Positions 20,877 through 29,794 of a stretch of DNA of 64,000 nt are shown here, one piece after another (position 1 is the first letter of the stretch; the number at the start of each line of letters is the position of its first letter). The notes beneath the pieces were generated by a model, which worked only from the letters and a program-made list of their open reading frames with translations, had not been told where the DNA came from and ran no database searches. The DNA lies in the NCBI RefSeq assembly GCF_003781945.1, contig NZ_RJJW01000003.1, positions 114,673 to 178,672 on the forward strand, in the 5' to 3' direction. The stretch is from Halorubrum sp. CSM-61. Lineage in GTDB: Archaea > Halobacteriota > Halobacteria > Halobacteriales > Haloferacaceae. The translations under genes and the position numbers were made by a program.

Positions 20877-21491
20877 TCAGTCGTCGGCGTACAGCGAGCT
20901 GAGGATGAACTCGTCGATCGCCTTGCGAGCCTCCTCGGGCGCGTCTTCGTGCCCGAGCGCCATCCGGCGTCCGCGCGCGGCGTGGATGACGTCGGTAATG
21001 AGCTGCCCCATCCGCTCGGCGTCGACGGGGGCGAAATCGCCCCGTTCGATCCCCTCCTCAACGACCTCGACGATGCTCCCGCGAACCCGGTCGTAGTGCT
21101 CGTTGAAGATCTCCCGGTGGTCGCCGTCGTTCTGCGCGTGGGTGTACAGCTCGTGGTACACCTTCATGCGGTCCCAGTGGCCGAACTCCTCGAACTCCGG
21201 CCCGAAGAGGCACTGATCGATCCGCGCGTCGAGCTCGGACCGGGGGTCGTCGCTCCCGTCGACCTCCACGCTGCCCTCGTACTGGTCGATGACGTACTCC
21301 AAGAACGCGGACAGCAGGTCGTACTTCCCGTCGAAGTGGTAGTGGATCACCTGCCGCGTCAGGTCCATCTCCTCGCCGATATCTCGCATTCGGAGGTCTT
21401 TGTACCCGTGCTTGCTCAGCGCACGGAACGTGGCCTCCATGATCACCTCCTCGGTGTCCTTGGAGGAGACCGTCTCGCGGGAGTCGCTCAT
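20877..21491 (-). CDS. TetR/AcrR family transcriptional regulator
   Basis: 204 aa. The N-terminal HTH (about residues 12-58) reads EEVIMEATFRALSKHGYKDL, then MRDIGEEMDLTRQVIHYHF with DGKYDLLSAFLEYV, a classic TetR domain. The C-terminal ligand/dimer domain is helical with the acidic/His segment HELYTHAQNDGDHREIFNEH. It is divergent from the amidohydrolase. A palindrome at 21536-21551 and a second one at 22988-23005 have the same layout and are likely its operators. Confidence 0.9.
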   Translation of the reverse strand: MSDSRETVSSKDTEEVIMEATFRALSKHGYKDLRMRDIGEEMDLTRQVIHYHFDGKYDLLSAFLEYVIDQYEGSVEVDGSDDPRSELDARIDQCLFGPEFEEFGHWDRMKVYHELYTHAQNDGDHREIFNEHYDRVRGSIVEVVEEGIERGDFAPVDAERMGQLITDVIHAARGRRMALGHEDAPEEARKAIDEFILSSLYADD

Positions 21492-21535
21492 ACGACCCCC
21501 TCCGGCGGTGAGGCATATAAGCGATCCCACCGTAC

Positions 21536-21551
21536 TTTACCAAGCAGTAAA
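21536..21551. promoter_or_regulatory. Operator-like palindrome between tetR and the amidohydrolase
   Basis: TTTAC (21536-21540), 6 nt, GTAAA (21547-21551). It lies 34-50 nt before the amidohydrolase ATG, at the core-promoter position, and 45-60 nt before tetR. An identical arrangement recurs at 22988-23005. Confidence 0.6.
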
Positions 21552-21585
21552 CTTTTACCCTCATGGTCAAACGGTACACTCACAC

Positions 21586-22940
21586 ATGACACGAAAGATC
21601 ATTCAGAACGGGACGGTCGTCACGCTGGATCCGGATATCGGGGACCTCGACGAGGCGGACGTACTGATCGAGGACGGAGAGATCGTCGAGGTCGGGCACG
21701 GGCTCTCGACGGAGAACGCGGAGGTCATCGACGCCGCCGACCAGATCGTCGTTCCCGGCTTCGTCGACTCGCACATCCACCTCGCGCAGACGCAGGTCAG
21801 GGGCATCGCCGGGGACTGGTCGCTGATGAACGAGTACTTCGACCACATGCTCGGCAACATCACCGGGCTCTACCGGCCCGAGGACATGTACCTCGGCGGC
21901 CTCTTCGGCGCCTTCGAGAAGCTCCACACGGGGACGACCACCGCGCTGGACTGGTCGTACCCCAACACGCTCGAACACGGCGAACGCGCCGTCGACGCGC
22001 TGAAAGACGCCGGACTGCGCGCGGTGTACACCTACGGGCCGCCGGGCGACGACTCGGCGAAGTGGTGGTACGAGAGCGACGTGGGTCTCCCCGAGGAGAA
22101 CATCCGCCAGCTCCACGAGGAGCGGATCCGCGACGACGACCTGCTCAGCCTGGCGCTCGGGCTCCGCGGGCCGGACTTCTGTACCGACGAGACCGCCCGG
22201 GCGGACTTGGAACTGGCGCGCGATCTGGGGGCGCTCTCGACCATCCACATGGGCGCCGCGCGTGGCCCTCCTCGGAGTACGGCGGCGACTACCAGGGGTT
22301 CGGCTGTATCGAGGACATGCTCGGTCCCGACGTCAACGTCGCCCACGGCAACCACTTCTCGCAGGAGGACATCGATCACGCCGTCGAGCAGGGCGTCTCG
22401 TTCTCGTCGACGCCGGAGGTCGAGATGCAGATGGGTCACGGCATCCCCGTCACCGGGAAGGTGCTCGAAGCGGGCGGGCGCCCGACGTGGGGCGTCGACG
22501 TCTGCTCGAACGTCAGCGGCGACATGGGCAGCCAGATGCGGATCGGGATGCAGCTCCAGCGCATGTTCGACAACCAGGCGGTCCTGGAGGGCGACGAGGA
22601 GGTCACCGAGGTGAGCATCTCCGCGCGCGACACCCTCGAGATGGCCACCGTCGAGGGCGCGAAGGCGCTCGGGCTGGACGACGAGATCGGGACGATCACC
22701 CCCGGAAAGCGCGCGGACCTCGTTTGCTTCGACGCGAACGACTTCATGACGGCACCCTCGCACTCCCCGGTCCAGACCGTCGTGTTCCAGGCGGACACAT
22801 CTCACATCGACACCGTGCTCGTCGACGGCGAGGTCGTCAAGCGCGACGGCGAGCTGACGAACCCGAAGGTCGGCGAGGAGTTCGACCGGTTCGTCGAATC
22901 GGGATGGCGCCTGCTCGACGAGGCCGGGATCGACCTGTAG
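21586..22940 (+). pseudogene. Amidohydrolase-superfamily gene interrupted by a frameshift
   Basis: The reading starts MTRKIIQNGTVVTL and follows an amidohydrolase/deaminase (SsnA, MTA/SAH deaminase, chlorohydrolase) fold: metal ligands H63 and H65 in DSHIHLAQ, a later TIHMGAA, then VAHGNHFS and WGVDVCSN. At about 22261-22263 the frame breaks: GCGCCGCGCG is followed by TGGCCC, and one base appears to be missing. The downstream frame continues with WPSSEYGGDYQGFGC to DEAGIDL at 22940. Restored length is about 451 aa. It is either a recent inactivation or a sequencing error. It is divergent from tetR, which probably regulates it. Confidence 0.8.
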
Positions 22941-22987
22941 GCCCGCCGATCCGGGACGCGATCCGCAGGCGAATCGGACGACACGCG

Positions 22988-23005
22988 TTTTACGAGCCGG
23001 TAAAA
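22988..23005. promoter_or_regulatory. Second TetR-type palindrome, before the DoxX-like gene
   Basis: TTTTAC (22988-22993), 6 nt, GTAAAA (23000-23005): the same half-sites and spacing as 21536-21551. It lies 120 nt before the DoxX-like start and 48 nt after the amidohydrolase stop, and suggests that the TetR protein also controls that gene. Confidence 0.55.
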
Positions 23006-23125
23006 CTTTAGCCGCCTCGGGCGCACGTACGGCTGTATGTCACTTCTGAACGGGACGGTAAGCGGTTCGTACCGGAGCGAGGTCGGCGCGTGCCGGACGG
23101 ATGGACGCACCGGGGTGGTGTCGGC

Positions 23126-23536
23126 GTGACCGACGGCGAGTCGACCGGCGACTCGAAATCGGCAGGTGACCCCCCGTCCGCGATCGGCCGCGCGCTGTAC
23201 GGCGGCGTCCTCGCGTACATGGCGCTCGACGGGTTCAAGAACAACGAGAAACGGGTCGAGGTCGCCGAAGCGAAGGGCGTTCCCATGCCGGACGTGCTCG
23301 TGCCGTTCGTCACCGGAATGTTGTTCGTCGCCAACCTCGGCGTCGTCTTCTGGAAGTTCCCGCGTGCCTCGGCCGGCGCGCTGATCGCGTTCTTCCTCGG
23401 GACGACCCCCGCGATCCACGACTTCTGGACGATGGAGGGGAAGGAACGCCACGGCAACAAGATCAACTTCCTGAAGAACCTCGCGCTGCTCGGCGGCGCG
23501 ATCACGCTTCTCGACGCCGCCGACAACGAGGAGTAG
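23126..23536 (+). CDS. DoxX-family membrane protein
   Basis: 136 aa with four hydrophobic segments. RALYGGVLAYMALDGFKNNE, KGVPMPDVLVPFVTGMLF and PAIHDFWTMEG (the conserved HDFW) followed by FLKNLALLGGAI are typical of DoxX/SURF4-like proteins. These sit in the membrane, and some couple thiol or quinone redox reactions; the function here is unknown. The GTG at 23126 is preferred; the open frame extends to 23090. Confidence 0.8.
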   Translation: MTDGESTGDSKSAGDPPSAIGRALYGGVLAYMALDGFKNNEKRVEVAEAKGVPMPDVLVPFVTGMLFVANLGVVFWKFPRASAGALIAFFLGTTPAIHDFWTMEGKERHGNKINFLKNLALLGGAITLLDAADNEE

Positions 23537-24048: not shown

Positions 24049-24885
24049 ATGAAAGAAGCGCGCACACGCGACGACGAGATCCCGGACCGACTGACGCTTC
24101 ACGTCGGGGGCGAAGAGCGGCTGTTCGAGCGGGCTCGCGCTCGCCCGCGCCCGAACGAGCTCGTCGTCTCCCCGGTCGAACTCCACCAGCGGAACGTCCA
24201 GCGCCGGCTCCGCGAGGCGCGGCTGCCGAGCGACGCCTTCCGCTTCGCGGACCCGGTCGAGATCTGTCTCCGCGCGTTGGAGGCGGCGGGGCGACCGACC
24301 GCGGCCGTGGACCGCGTCGACCGCCTCGCGCTGATCCGGTCGATACTCGACGCCGCGGCGGCCGACGACTCGACGGACCCCTCTCGTTCCACCGACCTCC
24401 CCCTTCCGACGGGGGCGTCGTCGCGGGACCCGCGGCGCGTCGAGCAGATCCGGACCGAAGTCGAGGCGATCACCAACTTCCACTCGGAGCGGATCGCGGC
24501 GTGGACGGAGACGGCCGGCGGGCTCGACGGCCCGATCGACGAGGGGGCGGCGGAGCTCCTCGACGCCGCGCTCGCGATCGAACGCGAGCTGCGGGACCGA
24601 ACCGCGGAGGCGGTCTCCGAGACGGCGCTCCTGCGCCGGGCGACGCGAGCGATCGCCGCGACGAACGGGTCGGCATGGGACGAAGCGTATCCGGGGATCG
24701 AGCGGATCACGCTCCTCGGGCTCTCCAGCCTGTCCGCGCCGCACACCGACCTCCTCAACGCGCTGCTGGCCGTCACGCCCGTCGCGGCCCACGTCCACTT
24801 CCGAGAGGGGACCGGCGAGTACCTCCGGCGTCGGGTCCCCGACCTCCTCGCCGTCGACGACCCCGGAACGGAGGCGTTCGAATGA
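24049..24885 (+). CDS. AddB/RecC-like helicase-fold subunit, N-terminal half
   Basis: About 278 aa. It begins with DRLTLHVGGEERLFERARAR and continues with PRPNELVVSPVELHQRNVQR, FADPVEICLRALEAAGR and, near the end, ERITLLGLSSLSAPHTDLLN and PVAAHVHFREGTG. This is the order of elements in the N-terminal half of AddB-type subunits, an inactivated superfamily 1 helicase; no Walker A P-loop is present. The start is uncertain: ATG 24049 is chosen, GTG 24004 or 24010 are alternatives. Its stop overlaps the next start (ATGA). See the findings for the split. Confidence 0.65.
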   Translation: MKEARTRDDEIPDRLTLHVGGEERLFERARARPRPNELVVSPVELHQRNVQRRLREARLPSDAFRFADPVEICLRALEAAGRPTAAVDRVDRLALIRSILDAAAADDSTDPSRSTDLPLPTGASSRDPRRVEQIRTEVEAITNFHSERIAAWTETAGGLDGPIDEGAAELLDAALAIERELRDRTAEAVSETALLRRATRAIAATNGSAWDEAYPGIERITLLGLSSLSAPHTDLLNALLAVTPVAAHVHFREGTGEYLRRRVPDLLAVDDPGTEAFE

Positions 24886-26162
24886 CGGGGGCCGACCGGC
24901 TCGCGCTCTCGGCGCCGATCGAGGCGCCCGACGCCCCCGTGATCGAGATCGCGTCTCCGACGCGCCGGGACGAGGCGCGCAGCGCGCTGGCGGTCGCGAC
25001 CGCGCTCCGAGACGCGGACGTTCCGGTCCGAGACGTCGCCGTCGCGGTCCGCGACCTCGATCCCTACGAGGAGCCGCTGTTCCGGGCGGCGCTCCGGCAC
25101 GGGATCGCGCCCGTGTTCTGGACCCAACTCCGCGTGACCCGGACCCGCCCGTACGCCCTCGTCGAGTCGGTGTGCGAGGCGCTGGCCGGAGAGGCCGTAG
25201 ACCGCGAGGCGCTGCTCCGTCCCCTCGAAATCCGGTGGTCGCCGGCGGCTCCCCCCGGCTCCGATACGCAGCCGACGGAGTGGCCGATCGAGCCCGAGGC
25301 GATCCACCGGGTCCGAGAGTCCCTCCCGGACGGCTCGCGATCGATCCCGGAGTGGATCGAAGTGATCGAGGCGATCGACGCGACCGAGGGCGTCGACGAC
25401 CGGTTCCGGCGGTTCGCCCAGTGGCTCGAGGACTCCCCGGCGCCGGAGCCGGCGTCGGTCGCCTCGCTGCTCGGCGAGGTGATCGAGGGATACGCCGACC
25501 GCGGGCTCCCGGAGACGAAGGCCGCGGACGCGCCGGCGCTGCTCGACACCGAGACCGACGCCCGTGCGGTCGTGCGGGTCCGCACCCTCGTCCGACAGCT
25601 GCGCCGCAAGTTCGCGGACCGGCTCGACGAGGGGACGCTGGAGCGCTCGTGGGACGCCGCCGCCGATCTGGCCGGCGAGATCGCCACGCAGCGCCCCGGT
25701 CGCCGGGAGCACTCGAACGCCCGCGCGCTCGACGTCTTCGAGGCGAACGACGTCTGGGCGCTCGACGTCCCCTACGTGATCGCCGTCGGACTGACGGCCG
25801 AGGAGTGGCCGCGGCCGACGCGGTCCGCGTTGCCGCCGGAGTTTCAGGAGGCGGTCCTCCGGGGCGGTGAAGGGTCCGAGACGCTCGCGCCGCGGCCGGC
25901 GTGGGTCGGCGGTCGCGACCGCGACCAGTTCGTCGACGCGCTCCGGGCGGCGGGGGACTGCGTCGTCGTCACCCGCCACACGCGGACCGCCGGCGGCGAC
26001 GACGTGGCCCGCTCCCCGCTGCTCGACCACGTCGAGACGCGGCGGGTCTCCGAGGCGTCTCGACGGCGGTTGGTCGGGACCGATCGGGAGCTCCCGCCGG
26101 CGCTGCGGGAGGTCGTCGGCGACGGTACCGAAAGCGGCGCCGCCGCGGAGGAGGGACCGTGA
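24882..26162 (+). CDS. AddB/RecC-like helicase-fold subunit, C-terminal half
   Basis: 426 aa. SPTRRDEARSALAVATALRD, DVAVAVRDLDPYEEPLFRAA and GIAPVFWTQLRVTRTRPYAL match the second RecA-like lobe of AddB/RecB-type proteins (motif IV region). Later, WALDVPYVIAVGLTAEEWPR and RDQFVDALRAAGDCVVVTRH fit the motif V/VI zone. No PD-(D/E)xK nuclease is seen in this chain. Coupled by 4-nt overlaps on both sides. With the 24049 gene it makes one AddB-like unit of about 700 aa. Confidence 0.7.
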   Translation: MTGADRLALSAPIEAPDAPVIEIASPTRRDEARSALAVATALRDADVPVRDVAVAVRDLDPYEEPLFRAALRHGIAPVFWTQLRVTRTRPYALVESVCEALAGEAVDREALLRPLEIRWSPAAPPGSDTQPTEWPIEPEAIHRVRESLPDGSRSIPEWIEVIEAIDATEGVDDRFRRFAQWLEDSPAPEPASVASLLGEVIEGYADRGLPETKAADAPALLDTETDARAVVRVRTLVRQLRRKFADRLDEGTLERSWDAAADLAGEIATQRPGRREHSNARALDVFEANDVWALDVPYVIAVGLTAEEWPRPTRSALPPEFQEAVLRGGEGSETLAPRPAWVGGRDRDQFVDALRAAGDCVVVTRHTRTAGGDDVARSPLLDHVETRRVSEASRRRLVGTDRELPPALREVVGDGTESGAAAEEGP

Positions 26163-29100
26163 GTGACGGTCTCGGCGACGCCGAGCCCCTCAGGCTGCGA
26201 GGCGCCCAGCGGGAGATCCGGGACGCGTACTTCGCGGCCGACGCCGGGCTGTTCACTCTCGACTGCGTTCCGGGGGCCGGCAAGTCGGTCGTCGCCCACC
26301 ACGTCGCCGCCGAGGACCTCCTCCGCCGATACGCGTCGGGCGACCCGACGCCCGAACAGCACGTCGCGGTGGTCTCGTTCAACCGCGACGAGGCGGCCGA
26401 GATCGTGCCGGCGATCTGCGACCGGCTGCGGGCGATCGTCGAGGGCGACCTCGTCCCCGCCGCGGCCGACGTCTCCGAGGCGGAGCTCCGATACCTCCAA
26501 CAGCGCGTTCGACAGGCTCCCTACGCGGGCACCGTCGACGGGTTCCTGCGCGGGATGTTCCGGGAGTTCGCGGGCGACGTCGGCTTCGACGAGACGCCGT
26601 CGGTCGGGAACGACGCGCTGATAAAGCGGGTCCACCGCGACTGCTACGAGTCGCTCCGCGAGGACCCGGAACAGGCCCGGCGGCTCCGCGACCTCGAGGC
26701 CGCGTATCCGGCGGGCGAGTACGACGCGGGCGTCGACGAGATGCTCGCGGACGCGCTGACGTACTGCCGCGATCGGCGCCTCTCGACCGAGGCATTTCGG
26801 TCGGAGATAACCAAGACCCGCGACTCGGTCTATCCGGGCGGGAAACCCGGCTCGTTCGACGATATCGTGCGGTCGGTCGAACTATTCGTCGAGGGAGGGG
26901 AAGCGAGCGATGGAGGAGCCGCCGACCGCGCCCGCGAGGCGGTGTCCGGCTCGGACCGAGCGCGCCTGCTCGACGCCGACCGCGAGCTGTACGACGCGTG
27001 GGACGCGCGCATCGACGACTTCTGCGCCGTCCTCTCGGCGTACCGCGCCCGCTACCGAGAGGCGGTCCGCGAGCGCGGCGCGGTCTCGCACACCGACGTC
27101 GCGTACCTCGTGGACGCGTACTTCGAGGAGTCGGACTCGCGGTCTGACCTGCCGGAACCGTTCCGTTCGGTCGACGACGCGCGCCGCGATCGGCTGCTCC
27201 GAACGTACCGCTCGCGGATCCGGAGCCTGGTCGTCGACGAGGCGCAGGACGTCTCCGCCGTCCAGCACGCCGCGCTCTCGCACGTCGTGACGAGCGACGC
27301 GCGGGTGTTCGCCTGCGGCGACCCCCTGCAGGGGATCTACCTGTGGCGCCACGCCGACCCGCGGTGGTTCGTCGCGGCGACGGCGGAGGGGACCTACCTC
27401 GGCGTGGACTGGGCGGTCCACGAGAACCGGACGGCGACCACCACCTACCGGTGCGTGCCCGACGTCGCCGCGGCGACAAACGCGATCGCCGAGCCCATAT
27501 TCGACGATCCGGCGCGCGGCGATATCGGCGACCTCGACGCCTCGTACGCGCGGTTGGACGCGGCCCGCGGCGGCGGCGAGAGTGGTGTGAAGGACGACGA
27601 TCAGGACGGCGGCGATTCCCCCGCCGTCCACGTCGCGTCGTTCGCCGGCGTCGGTCGCCCCGGCTCCGCGACGTGGGCGAATCCCGACGGCGAGGGCGGG
27701 GAGGCGAGCGTGCTCGCGACCCTCGTCTCGCGGGGGCTCGCCGACGGGACGTTCCGCGACGCCGACGGCGACCCGCTGGGCGTCACGGTGCTGTTCCGGC
27801 GCGGAACGCGGATGCCCGAGTACGAGGCGGCGTTCGCCGCCGAGGGGCTCCGCGTCCGCACCGCGACCGACGCGCTGTTCGACTCCCCCGCCGTCGAGGC
27901 GGTCCTCGCCGTCTGCGAGTGGCTGATCGCGCCCGGGTCCCCGGAGCGCACCGCCGAGCTCCTCACCGAGTCCCCGCTGAGCGCCCCCTTCGACGCGGCC
28001 TCCTCCGATCCGACCCCGTTCGAGGCCCGGTCCTGGGACCTCGACCGGGTGCTCGACGACGACCCGGACTCCCTCTCGGTCGCGCAGCGAGAGACGCTCC
28101 GCGGGCTCGTCCGGCTTCGCGACCGGTGCGACGCCTTCGCCCGACTCCCGGCGAGCGCGTACGTCGAGGACGTCATCGAGGCGCTCGCGCTACGGGCCGA
28201 TCCGAGCGGGTGCGTCACCGACGCGGATCCGGACCAGCGGGTCGCCAACCTGGACGCGCTCGTCGAGACGGTCTCCGAGTGGGAGGGGGACGACCGCTTC
28301 TCGCCCGCGGAGCTGATCGACCTCGCGGAGCCGTTCCGGGAGGACCCCGCAGTCGGCCCGTCACAGCCGAGCGCGGCCGGGGCCGCCTACGACGTCGAGT
28401 TCCGCACGGTCCACCGGGCCAAGGGAGACCAGGACGACGTGGTCGTCGTCGCAGACCCCGGGTTCGACATATGGTCGCGCGGCCCCCACACCCGTCGGTT
28501 CGTCGCGCAGGGAGAGATCGCGGGGCTCGCGCCGCCGACGGACACGGACGTGCCCGAGGATATCGCTATCCCTCCGTTCGACGGGGGACTGTACGGCGCC
28601 GGGGACGGCTGGGGCCGCGACGTCGGGCTCCGCTGGGCGACGGCTCGATGGCGGGACGCCGCGGGCGACTTCGCCCCGGGGTCCGCCGACTCCGACGCGC
28701 TCGTCGGCCCGGAGCGGCTCCGCCGCGTGGCCGAAAACGAACGCGCCGAGGCGTGGCGACTGCTGTACGTGGCGCTGACGCGAGCCCGGGACCACCTCGT
28801 CGTTCCGCTCCCTCGCTCGTCCGGTGGAGAGGACCGGCCCCGGGACCGGTGGCTCGACGCGCTCCGCGACGGGCTAGCGTTCCCGCGCGACGGCACCGAG
28901 TCCTACGAACTCCGGCTCGACGCGGACCGGAACCGGGACACGAACCGGGACGCGATCGAGGTCGGAGTCAACGACGTGGACCTGTTCGCGGGGCGCGACG
29001 AGCCGACGACGGCTCAAACCGGCCGCGGTCGCGTCGCCGCCTCCCCGACGCGGCGCGACCGACTCGACCCGTGGGTCCCCCGGTTTCTGAGTCCCAGCAC

Positions 29101-29794
29101 GATGTACCCGCTGACGGAGGACGCGGACCGGTACGCGCTCGCCCACCTCCTGAACGAGCCGCTGCACACGACCACCAACGAGGTCGCCCACGATCTCCCG
29201 CTGCGGTTCGACCGGCTCGGTCCCGAGGAGGTCGGGACGTGTCTCCACGACGCGCTCACGAAACTGGTCACCCGTGGCGTCGGCGAGCGGGCGATCCGGA
29301 CGACGGACCCCGAGGTGCGCGCCGCCTTCGACGACGCCGTGAACGCGCTCTCGGAACCCGTCGACGAGACCGAACGCGAGGGGATGTTCGCGTTCTTCGG
29401 GAGCGTTCTCGACGACTTCCTCGGCTCGGACCTTTGGGACCGGATCGCGGACCCGGCGACCGAGGTCGGCGTCGAACGCCCGCTGGACGGGCTGGCCGAG
29501 GTCGGCGACCTCGAGGTCGAGATCCACGGGCGGGCGGACTTCGTCGTCGAGTACCCGAACGGAGAGCGGTTCGTGACCGACGCGAAGATCGCCCTGGCCG
29601 AGCCGACTCCCGAGACGCGGCGGCGGTACGAGCTCCAGATCGCGGCGTACGCGTTCCTCGCGGACCAGCGCGGCGCGCGCGATGCGCCCGTCCGCCGGAC
29701 CGTCGAGACGTTCGGCGTCGCACGCGAGACGACGACGGCCTCGTGGCCGGCCGACATCGTTCACCGGCGGCTGCGACGGCTCCTCGACCGGTGA
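26159..29794 (+). CDS. UvrD/AddA-like ATP-dependent helicase with C-terminal PD-(D/E)xK nuclease
   Basis: 1211 aa. Helicase motifs: Walker A VPGAGKS (37-43), Walker B LVVDEAQDVS (about 357-366), RTVHRAKGDQDDVVVVAD (motif V) and RLLYVALTRARDHLVVP (motif VI, about 867). The C-terminal nuclease shows GTCLHDALTKL, GRADFVV with TDAKIAL (about 1124-1140) and ELQIAAYAF (QxxxY). The layout, helicase then nuclease in one chain, is that of AddA/RecB. The start is GTG 26159, overlapping the previous stop (GTGA). Expected role: end processing of double-strand breaks. Confidence 0.88.
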   Translation: MSDGLGDAEPLRLRGAQREIRDAYFAADAGLFTLDCVPGAGKSVVAHHVAAEDLLRRYASGDPTPEQHVAVVSFNRDEAAEIVPAICDRLRAIVEGDLVPAAADVSEAELRYLQQRVRQAPYAGTVDGFLRGMFREFAGDVGFDETPSVGNDALIKRVHRDCYESLREDPEQARRLRDLEAAYPAGEYDAGVDEMLADALTYCRDRRLSTEAFRSEITKTRDSVYPGGKPGSFDDIVRSVELFVEGGEASDGGAADRAREAVSGSDRARLLDADRELYDAWDARIDDFCAVLSAYRARYREAVRERGAVSHTDVAYLVDAYFEESDSRSDLPEPFRSVDDARRDRLLRTYRSRIRSLVVDEAQDVSAVQHAALSHVVTSDARVFACGDPLQGIYLWRHADPRWFVAATAEGTYLGVDWAVHENRTATTTYRCVPDVAAATNAIAEPIFDDPARGDIGDLDASYARLDAARGGGESGVKDDDQDGGDSPAVHVASFAGVGRPGSATWANPDGEGGEASVLATLVSRGLADGTFRDADGDPLGVTVLFRRGTRMPEYEAAFAAEGLRVRTATDALFDSPAVEAVLAVCEWLIAPGSPERTAELLTESPLSAPFDAASSDPTPFEARSWDLDRVLDDDPDSLSVAQRETLRGLVRLRDRCDAFARLPASAYVEDVIEALALRADPSGCVTDADPDQRVANLDALVETVSEWEGDDRFSPAELIDLAEPFREDPAVGPSQPSAAGAAYDVEFRTVHRAKGDQDDVVVVADPGFDIWSRGPHTRRFVAQGEIAGLAPPTDTDVPEDIAIPPFDGGLYGAGDGWGRDVGLRWATARWRDAAGDFAPGSADSDALVGPERLRRVAENERAEAWRLLYVALTRARDHLVVPLPRSSGGEDRPRDRWLDALRDGLAFPRDGTESYELRLDADRNRDTNRDAIEVGVNDVDLFAGRDEPTTAQTGRGRVAASPTRRDRLDPWVPRFLSPSTMYPLTEDADRYALAHLLNEPLHTTTNEVAHDLPLRFDRLGPEEVGTCLHDALTKLVTRGVGERAIRTTDPEVRAAFDDAVNALSEPVDETEREGMFAFFGSVLDDFLGSDLWDRIADPATEVGVERPLDGLAEVGDLEVEIHGRADFVVEYPNGERFVTDAKIALAEPTPETRRRYELQIAAYAFLADQRGARDAPVRRTVETFGVARETTTASWPADIVHRRLRRLLDR

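Follow-up and report, generated by a model that had tools for sequence, protein, structure and literature searches.

A probable compact AddAB-type helicase-nuclease operon with a split AddB-like scaffold in haloarchaea

Introduction

Three consecutive genes at positions 24,049 to 29,794 of a 64,000-nucleotide stretch of Halorubrum sp. CSM-61 DNA (hereafter, the window) raise the question of whether this haloarchaeon encodes a DNA helicase-nuclease of the AddAB or RecBCD kind, and of what such a machine would do there. A preliminary description of the locus had proposed an AddAB/RecB-like operon of bacterial type, additional to the usual archaeal end-processing enzymes and perhaps also serving defence or plasmid degradation. 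Archaeal addAB genes were reportedly mentioned by Cromie in 2009, and our search of the literature found no description of haloarchaeal AddAB; to our knowledge, no Chi sequence is known for haloarchaea. In Haloferax volcanii, end resection has been credited to Mre11-Rad50, with HerA-NurA absent (PMC7776575), and fusions of an SF1 helicase to a PD-(D/E)xK nuclease, termed UvrD-Cas4-like, occur in mesophilic archaea, either alone or next to restriction or Dcm genes (PMC5704561). In this work we analyze the gene structure, predicted folds, phylogeny and genomic distribution of the three genes, here called A, B and C.

Results

The three genes lie on the forward strand and are joined by overlapping stop and start codons. 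Gene A (24,049 to 24,885; 278 aa) runs from an ATG at 24,049 to a TGA ending at 24,885 and shares the tetranucleotide ATGA (24,882 to 24,885) with gene B (24,882 to 26,162; 426 aa; ATG at 24,882, TGA ending at 26,162), which in turn overlaps gene C (26,159 to 29,794; 1211 aa; GTG at 26,159, TGA ending at 29,794) through GTGA (26,159 to 26,162). Both overlaps have GGAGG upstream, and the location and 4-nt overlaps given in the preliminary description are correct. Codon-position GC of about 0.77/0.52/0.91 in the three frames is of the coding type, as in real haloarchaeal genes. All 18 split operons examined retain the A/B overlap in the form of ATGA or GTGA, most of the closest relatives of the window have a GGAGG-like sequence ahead of it, and the stop/start overlaps of split operons persist across 40-80% identity. 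The three-gene operon is real, its gene structure and conserved motifs being far beyond chance. The conserved overlap, often with GGAGG before it, suggests translational coupling, through which the products of A and B, putatively two halves of one scaffold, may be held at equal dose.

Protein C joins an SF1 helicase to a C-terminal PD-(D/E)xK nuclease, with Pfam matches to UvrD-helicase (1.1e-15), UvrD_C and PDDEXK_1 (3.7e-9). Its Walker A motif, GAGKS (26,273 to 26,287), Walker B or motif II, DEAQD (27,236 to 27,250), motif VI, WRLLYVALTRARDH (28,754 to 28,795), and the nuclease motifs GTCLH, E...GRAD, TDAK and LQIAAYAF (29,234 to 29,656) are all encoded on the forward strand, and every element previously read in this gene, QxxxY included, is present. 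The Walker A lysine is residue 42 of C, and the Asp and Lys of the nuclease are residues 1141 and 1143. Across 23 homologues the G, G, K and S of Walker A, the whole of DEAQD and the core residues of motif VI are invariant; the cores of Walker A, DEAQD and motifs III, V and VI are conserved down to 34% identity, and the nuclease residues H, E, D, D/E, K, Q and Y in 23 of 23 aligned sequences. The best NCBIfam model is addA_Gpos at 51.7 bits (3.3e-14), with recB close behind at 49.7 bits; the curated cut-offs lie much higher, at 707.65 and 696.05 bits, respectively, and C is therefore divergent. A canonical haloarchaeal AddA (L067), at 350 bits, likewise falls under the AddA cut-off.

Structure models were built on 22-23 sequences. 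The AlphaFold2 model of C (residues 12-1211, pLDDT 80) has Bacillus AddA as its top four PDB chains in Foldseek (4cej_A, 4cei_A, 4ceh_A and 3u44_A; E 3.7e-31 to 1.9e-28), followed by RecB (1.5e-23) and then UvrD (9.6e-20); over the whole chain the model deviates strongly from AddA (global rmsd ~22 Å), probably because the domain arrangement differs. The tree gathers the C family into a single clade (100/100), with the AddA-like subunits of a set of long haloarchaeal operons, L058-L061, as its sister group (99/96). Canonical haloarchaeal AddA, E. coli RecB and UvrD all fall elsewhere; long branches in some bacterial reference rows make the deep placement of the C family tentative. Structure prediction and phylogeny, the approaches suggested in the preliminary description, thus place the fold of C nearest to AddA and its family in a clade of its own beside long haloarchaeal AddAB. 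Judged by sequence and predicted fold, C is AddA-like and not RecB-like, so that of the AddAB/RecB-like label the first half stands on the folds and the second is not upheld, AddA ranking first and the tree lying apart from RecB. The C-terminal region does contain the nuclease (PDDEXK_1, 3.7e-9), and C does not group with UvrD, being apart from it in the tree and closer to AddA and RecB in the Foldseek ranking. A helicase-only identity of the UvrD/Rep/PcrA kind is ruled out by the nuclease domain and the tree separation from UvrD.

Neither Pfam nor NCBIfam has a curated family that matches protein A or B, and RefSeq plasmids label the scaffold subunit 'hypothetical protein'. In a sister clade, a single gene of ~670-720 aa precedes C (L048-L053, L055, L056; plasmids of Haloferax gibbonsii and Haloarcula sinaiiensis), and A aligns to residues ~14-260 and B to residues ~285-690 of these fused homologues. 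The model of one of them (L052, 690 aa, pLDDT 86), taken as a stand-in for A and B themselves, has AddB chains as its top five PDB matches (6.3e-17 to 2.5e-15), with UvrD, AdnA and RecC below, and the A/B break falls in its low-confidence linker, residues 262-276. In hhalign, the A+B / fused AddB-like profile matches long haloarchaeal AddB-like proteins at 6.5e-38 and Fe-S-type AddB proteins at 2.1e-7 (probability 93.6). The one-gene form in the sister clade and the AddB-first fold lead us to read A+B as a split AddB-like scaffold, with A as the N-terminal half up to the inter-domain linker and B as the C-terminal half. None of the AddB-like proteins checked, that of gene A included, has a P-loop or GK(S/T) motif, and the C-terminal Fe-S PD-(D/E)xK nuclease of AddB was found in none of them: they stop at ~680 aa, give no PDDEXK match and have few cysteines. 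The fused relatives are equally devoid of this nuclease, with their frames intact. Sequence and model together identify A+B as a predicted AddB-like scaffold, split at the inter-domain linker and without P-loop or C-terminal nuclease, which leaves a machine with one nuclease and one evident motor. In the AddB-like tree the split form makes up one clade of 18 (98/99) plus the basal row L037, so the split arose once or twice, or was followed by one re-fusion. At G078:C2:99488-99901, an AddB-like fragment interrupted by two TGA codons in frame is apparently the remnant of a lost operon.

With thresholds of > 500 bits for C and > 240 bits for A/B, each of the two components was found in 21 of 145 Halobacteria genomes, and the two sets of genomes are identical. 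Outside Halobacteria, a phylum sample of 295 genomes gave no relatives at E <= 1e-30; because every member of the family in the sampled genomes belongs to Halobacteria, a direct bacterial origin is not supported. Matching plasmid records number 17, all haloarchaeal, of which 15 cover at least 80% of C and the last two are of a more distant type. Phage records gave no match to the operon, and a viral origin was rejected, the matches in viral contigs being short UvrD motifs only.

The closest named relatives of the operon are in Halorubrum species (C is 86% identical in H. halophilum). Throughout the window's Halorubrum subclade, in at least eight species, the operon adjoins the same genes, which we take to encode a thioredoxin-like, an EF-1-beta-like and a 411-aa membrane protein; the site is also flanked by a presumably phoU-like gene. 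In G013, a Halorubrum without the operon at this site, the phoU-like and thioredoxin-like genes are ~140 bp apart, forming an empty site, and a plasmid carries a 49% identical copy. The distribution is patchy: many copies are on plasmids, and a Halorubrum subclade has the operon at a single conserved position in the chromosome. The plasmid copies, the conserved site and the empty site in G013 mark the operon as accessory and sometimes mobile, but maintained.

Several local variations were also observed. In the window, genes for a TetR-like regulator, a deaminase-like amidohydrolase and a small protein (20,877 to 23,536) lie between the phoU-like gene and gene A; they are missing in L033, L035 and L057, where gene A directly follows phoU. 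Another Halorubrum (G097, contigs C16 and C19) carries the operon twice: one copy occupies the syntenic site, and the other, 64% identical, lies elsewhere. On a Halobaculum marinum plasmid (L146, NZ_CP119991.1), ~7 kb of unrelated genes for sulfur and metal metabolism separate the AddB-like from the C-like gene.

The genome that carries the window has no second C. It encodes a NurA family protein (60.3 bits) and DUF87/HerA-like ATPases, beside which the operon stands as the additional machine that had been proposed. Two Rad50 models found no match in this genome and none in the Haloferax control either. The NurA family PF09376 scored above its cut-off in Haloferax volcanii, in contrast with the absence of HerA and NurA stated for that organism (PMC7776575).

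Discussion

Compared with known systems, the operon most resembles Bacillus subtilis AddAB (3u4q, 3u44, 4ceh, 4cei, 4cej), the top structural match of both its subunits, with which it shares an AddA-like helicase-nuclease beside an AddB-like helicase-fold scaffold and the addB-addA order. It differs in that the AddB-like subunit is in two pieces and lacks the P-loop and the C-terminal Fe-S nuclease. The features of AddAB found here are thus the SF1A motifs with a C-terminal PD-(D/E)xK nuclease and, in the form of A+B, an adjoining SF1-fold AddB-like partner; those not found are the second (AddB Fe-S) nuclease and scores above the curated AddA and AddB cut-offs. E. coli RecBCD resembles the operon in having a single nuclease on its main motor subunit and, in RecC, a partner scaffold without ATPase motifs, but the operon has no gene resembling the SF1B helicase RecD (the next gene is the thioredoxin-like one), C and A+B match AddA and AddB above RecB and RecC, and its tree position is separate from RecB. 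Mycobacterial AdnAB is also a two-subunit SF1 helicase-nuclease, with structural matches ranking below AddAB; unlike the operon, it carries a motor and a nuclease on each subunit.

Within haloarchaea, the long AddAB operons (L058-L061) share the two-gene AddB-AddA order and form the sister clade (99/96), and canonical AddAB (L062, L063, L065-L067) has the same order and is more distant kin. In both groups, by contrast, the AddB partner has 1056-1177 aa, and the canonical AddB proteins tested (L062, L067) have a full PD-(D/E)xK nuclease with Fe-S-type cysteines, missing in A+B. Another rearranged AddAB-like operon (L064, G073:C33, 2539-9293) encodes a 735-aa UvrD-like scaffold, a 1205-aa helicase-nuclease and, from a further gene, a 314-aa protein whose CxxC...C pattern is Fe-S-like and which could be a detached nuclease. 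Two-gene pairs of a PD-(D/E)xK protein and a UvrD helicase were also noted near toxin-antitoxin genes on plasmids of Sphingomonas (L162) and Picosynechococcus (pAQ6, L165); AddAB-like pairs may thus be more widespread on plasmids.

The alternative that fares best is that the operon is primarily a defence or plasmid-competition system degrading foreign linear DNA, and not a repair enzyme, a reading to which we grant somewhat less than even chances. Its patchy distribution with many plasmid copies, a tree suggesting transfer between families and the link to defence genes that fusions of UvrD with a Cas4-like nuclease show elsewhere (PMC5704561) speak for it. The neighbourhood, however, does not: a PADLOC and Pfam scan of 93 neighbour proteins detected no recurring defence gene and only scattered matches, mainly to TnpB/Cas12f-like transposon proteins, leaving the proposed role in defence or plasmid degradation unsupported by adjacent genes, and the operon of the window's Halorubrum subclade has core genes around it at its conserved site. 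The PADLOC matches of C to Gabija (GajAB) are generic UvrD motifs of GajB, with no match for A or B, and Gabija, in which the helicase GajB is paired with the OLD-type nuclease GajA, was rejected as an identity.

That C is a stand-alone UvrD-Cas4-like helicase-nuclease, with A and B as unrelated neighbours, is very improbable. Such fusions are known in mesophilic archaea (PMC5704561), A and B match no curated family, and the two genes are ~7 kb apart in the Halobaculum plasmid; against this, an AddB-like partner is present in every genome with C (21 of 21), setting it apart from UvrD-Cas4-like fusions, the stop/start overlaps are conserved, AddB tops the structural matches of the fused A+B homologue, and AddA and RecB come ahead of UvrD for C. 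We give equally little credence to a relic AddAB on its way out, in which AddB has lost its nuclease and decayed into a split gene. The missing nuclease domain and P-loop, the two pieces and the G078 fragment with its two stop codons would fit decay, but the split form is a clade of 18 with intact frames (98/99), its overlaps are preserved at 40-80% identity, the catalytic residues of C are invariant, and fused relatives without the nuclease are nevertheless intact. Least credible of all is the production of A+B as one protein by programmed frameshifting. The existence of fused homologues and the conserved overlap would be in keeping with it, but the break sits in a linker that is disordered, and the overlap is a simple ATGA/GTGA stop-start, preceded in the closest relatives by a GGAGG-like site and showing no slippery run shared among the operons.

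We therefore favour, with considerable confidence, a compact AddAB-type DNA helicase-nuclease acting as an accessory end-processing machine, for which complex formation, polarity, activity and cellular role are what we infer. The products of A and B would come together as an AddB-like scaffold, whose SF1-helicase fold would be inactive and has neither P-loop nor nuclease domain, and would bind the AddA-like C. At a double-strand end, C would grip the 3'-ended strand and, by analogy with AddAB, its SF1A motor would move 3'-to-5' by ATP hydrolysis, unwinding the duplex against the scaffold, while its single C-terminal nuclease would cut the unwound strand or strands, with end resection or degradation as the outcome. 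The machine would work beside the host's own end-processing pathway, its role perhaps lying in repair, plasmid upkeep or defence, and may spread on haloarchaeal plasmids, megaplasmids and a few chromosomal sites. More speculatively, and with the balance tilting against it, the family may be a distinct plasmid-mobile AddAB subfamily, with three chains, one motor, one nuclease and no AddB nuclease, that provides haloarchaea with long-range resection or foreign-DNA degradation.

It appears to be new that the hypothetical proteins A and B are recognized as an AddB that is split and devoid of its nuclease, that they pair one-to-one with C, and that the family forms a separate clade. The scaffold subunit of a compact AddAB-type machine had been invisible to family databases, and naming A+B as the partner of C makes the pair testable together. 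The operon shows which parts of AddAB can be lost, namely the nuclease and the ATP site of AddB, with the active sites of AddA remaining invariant. Little is known of how long 3' tails arise at DNA breaks in haloarchaea, and the operon provides a testable candidate for the processing of broken or foreign DNA in these organisms.
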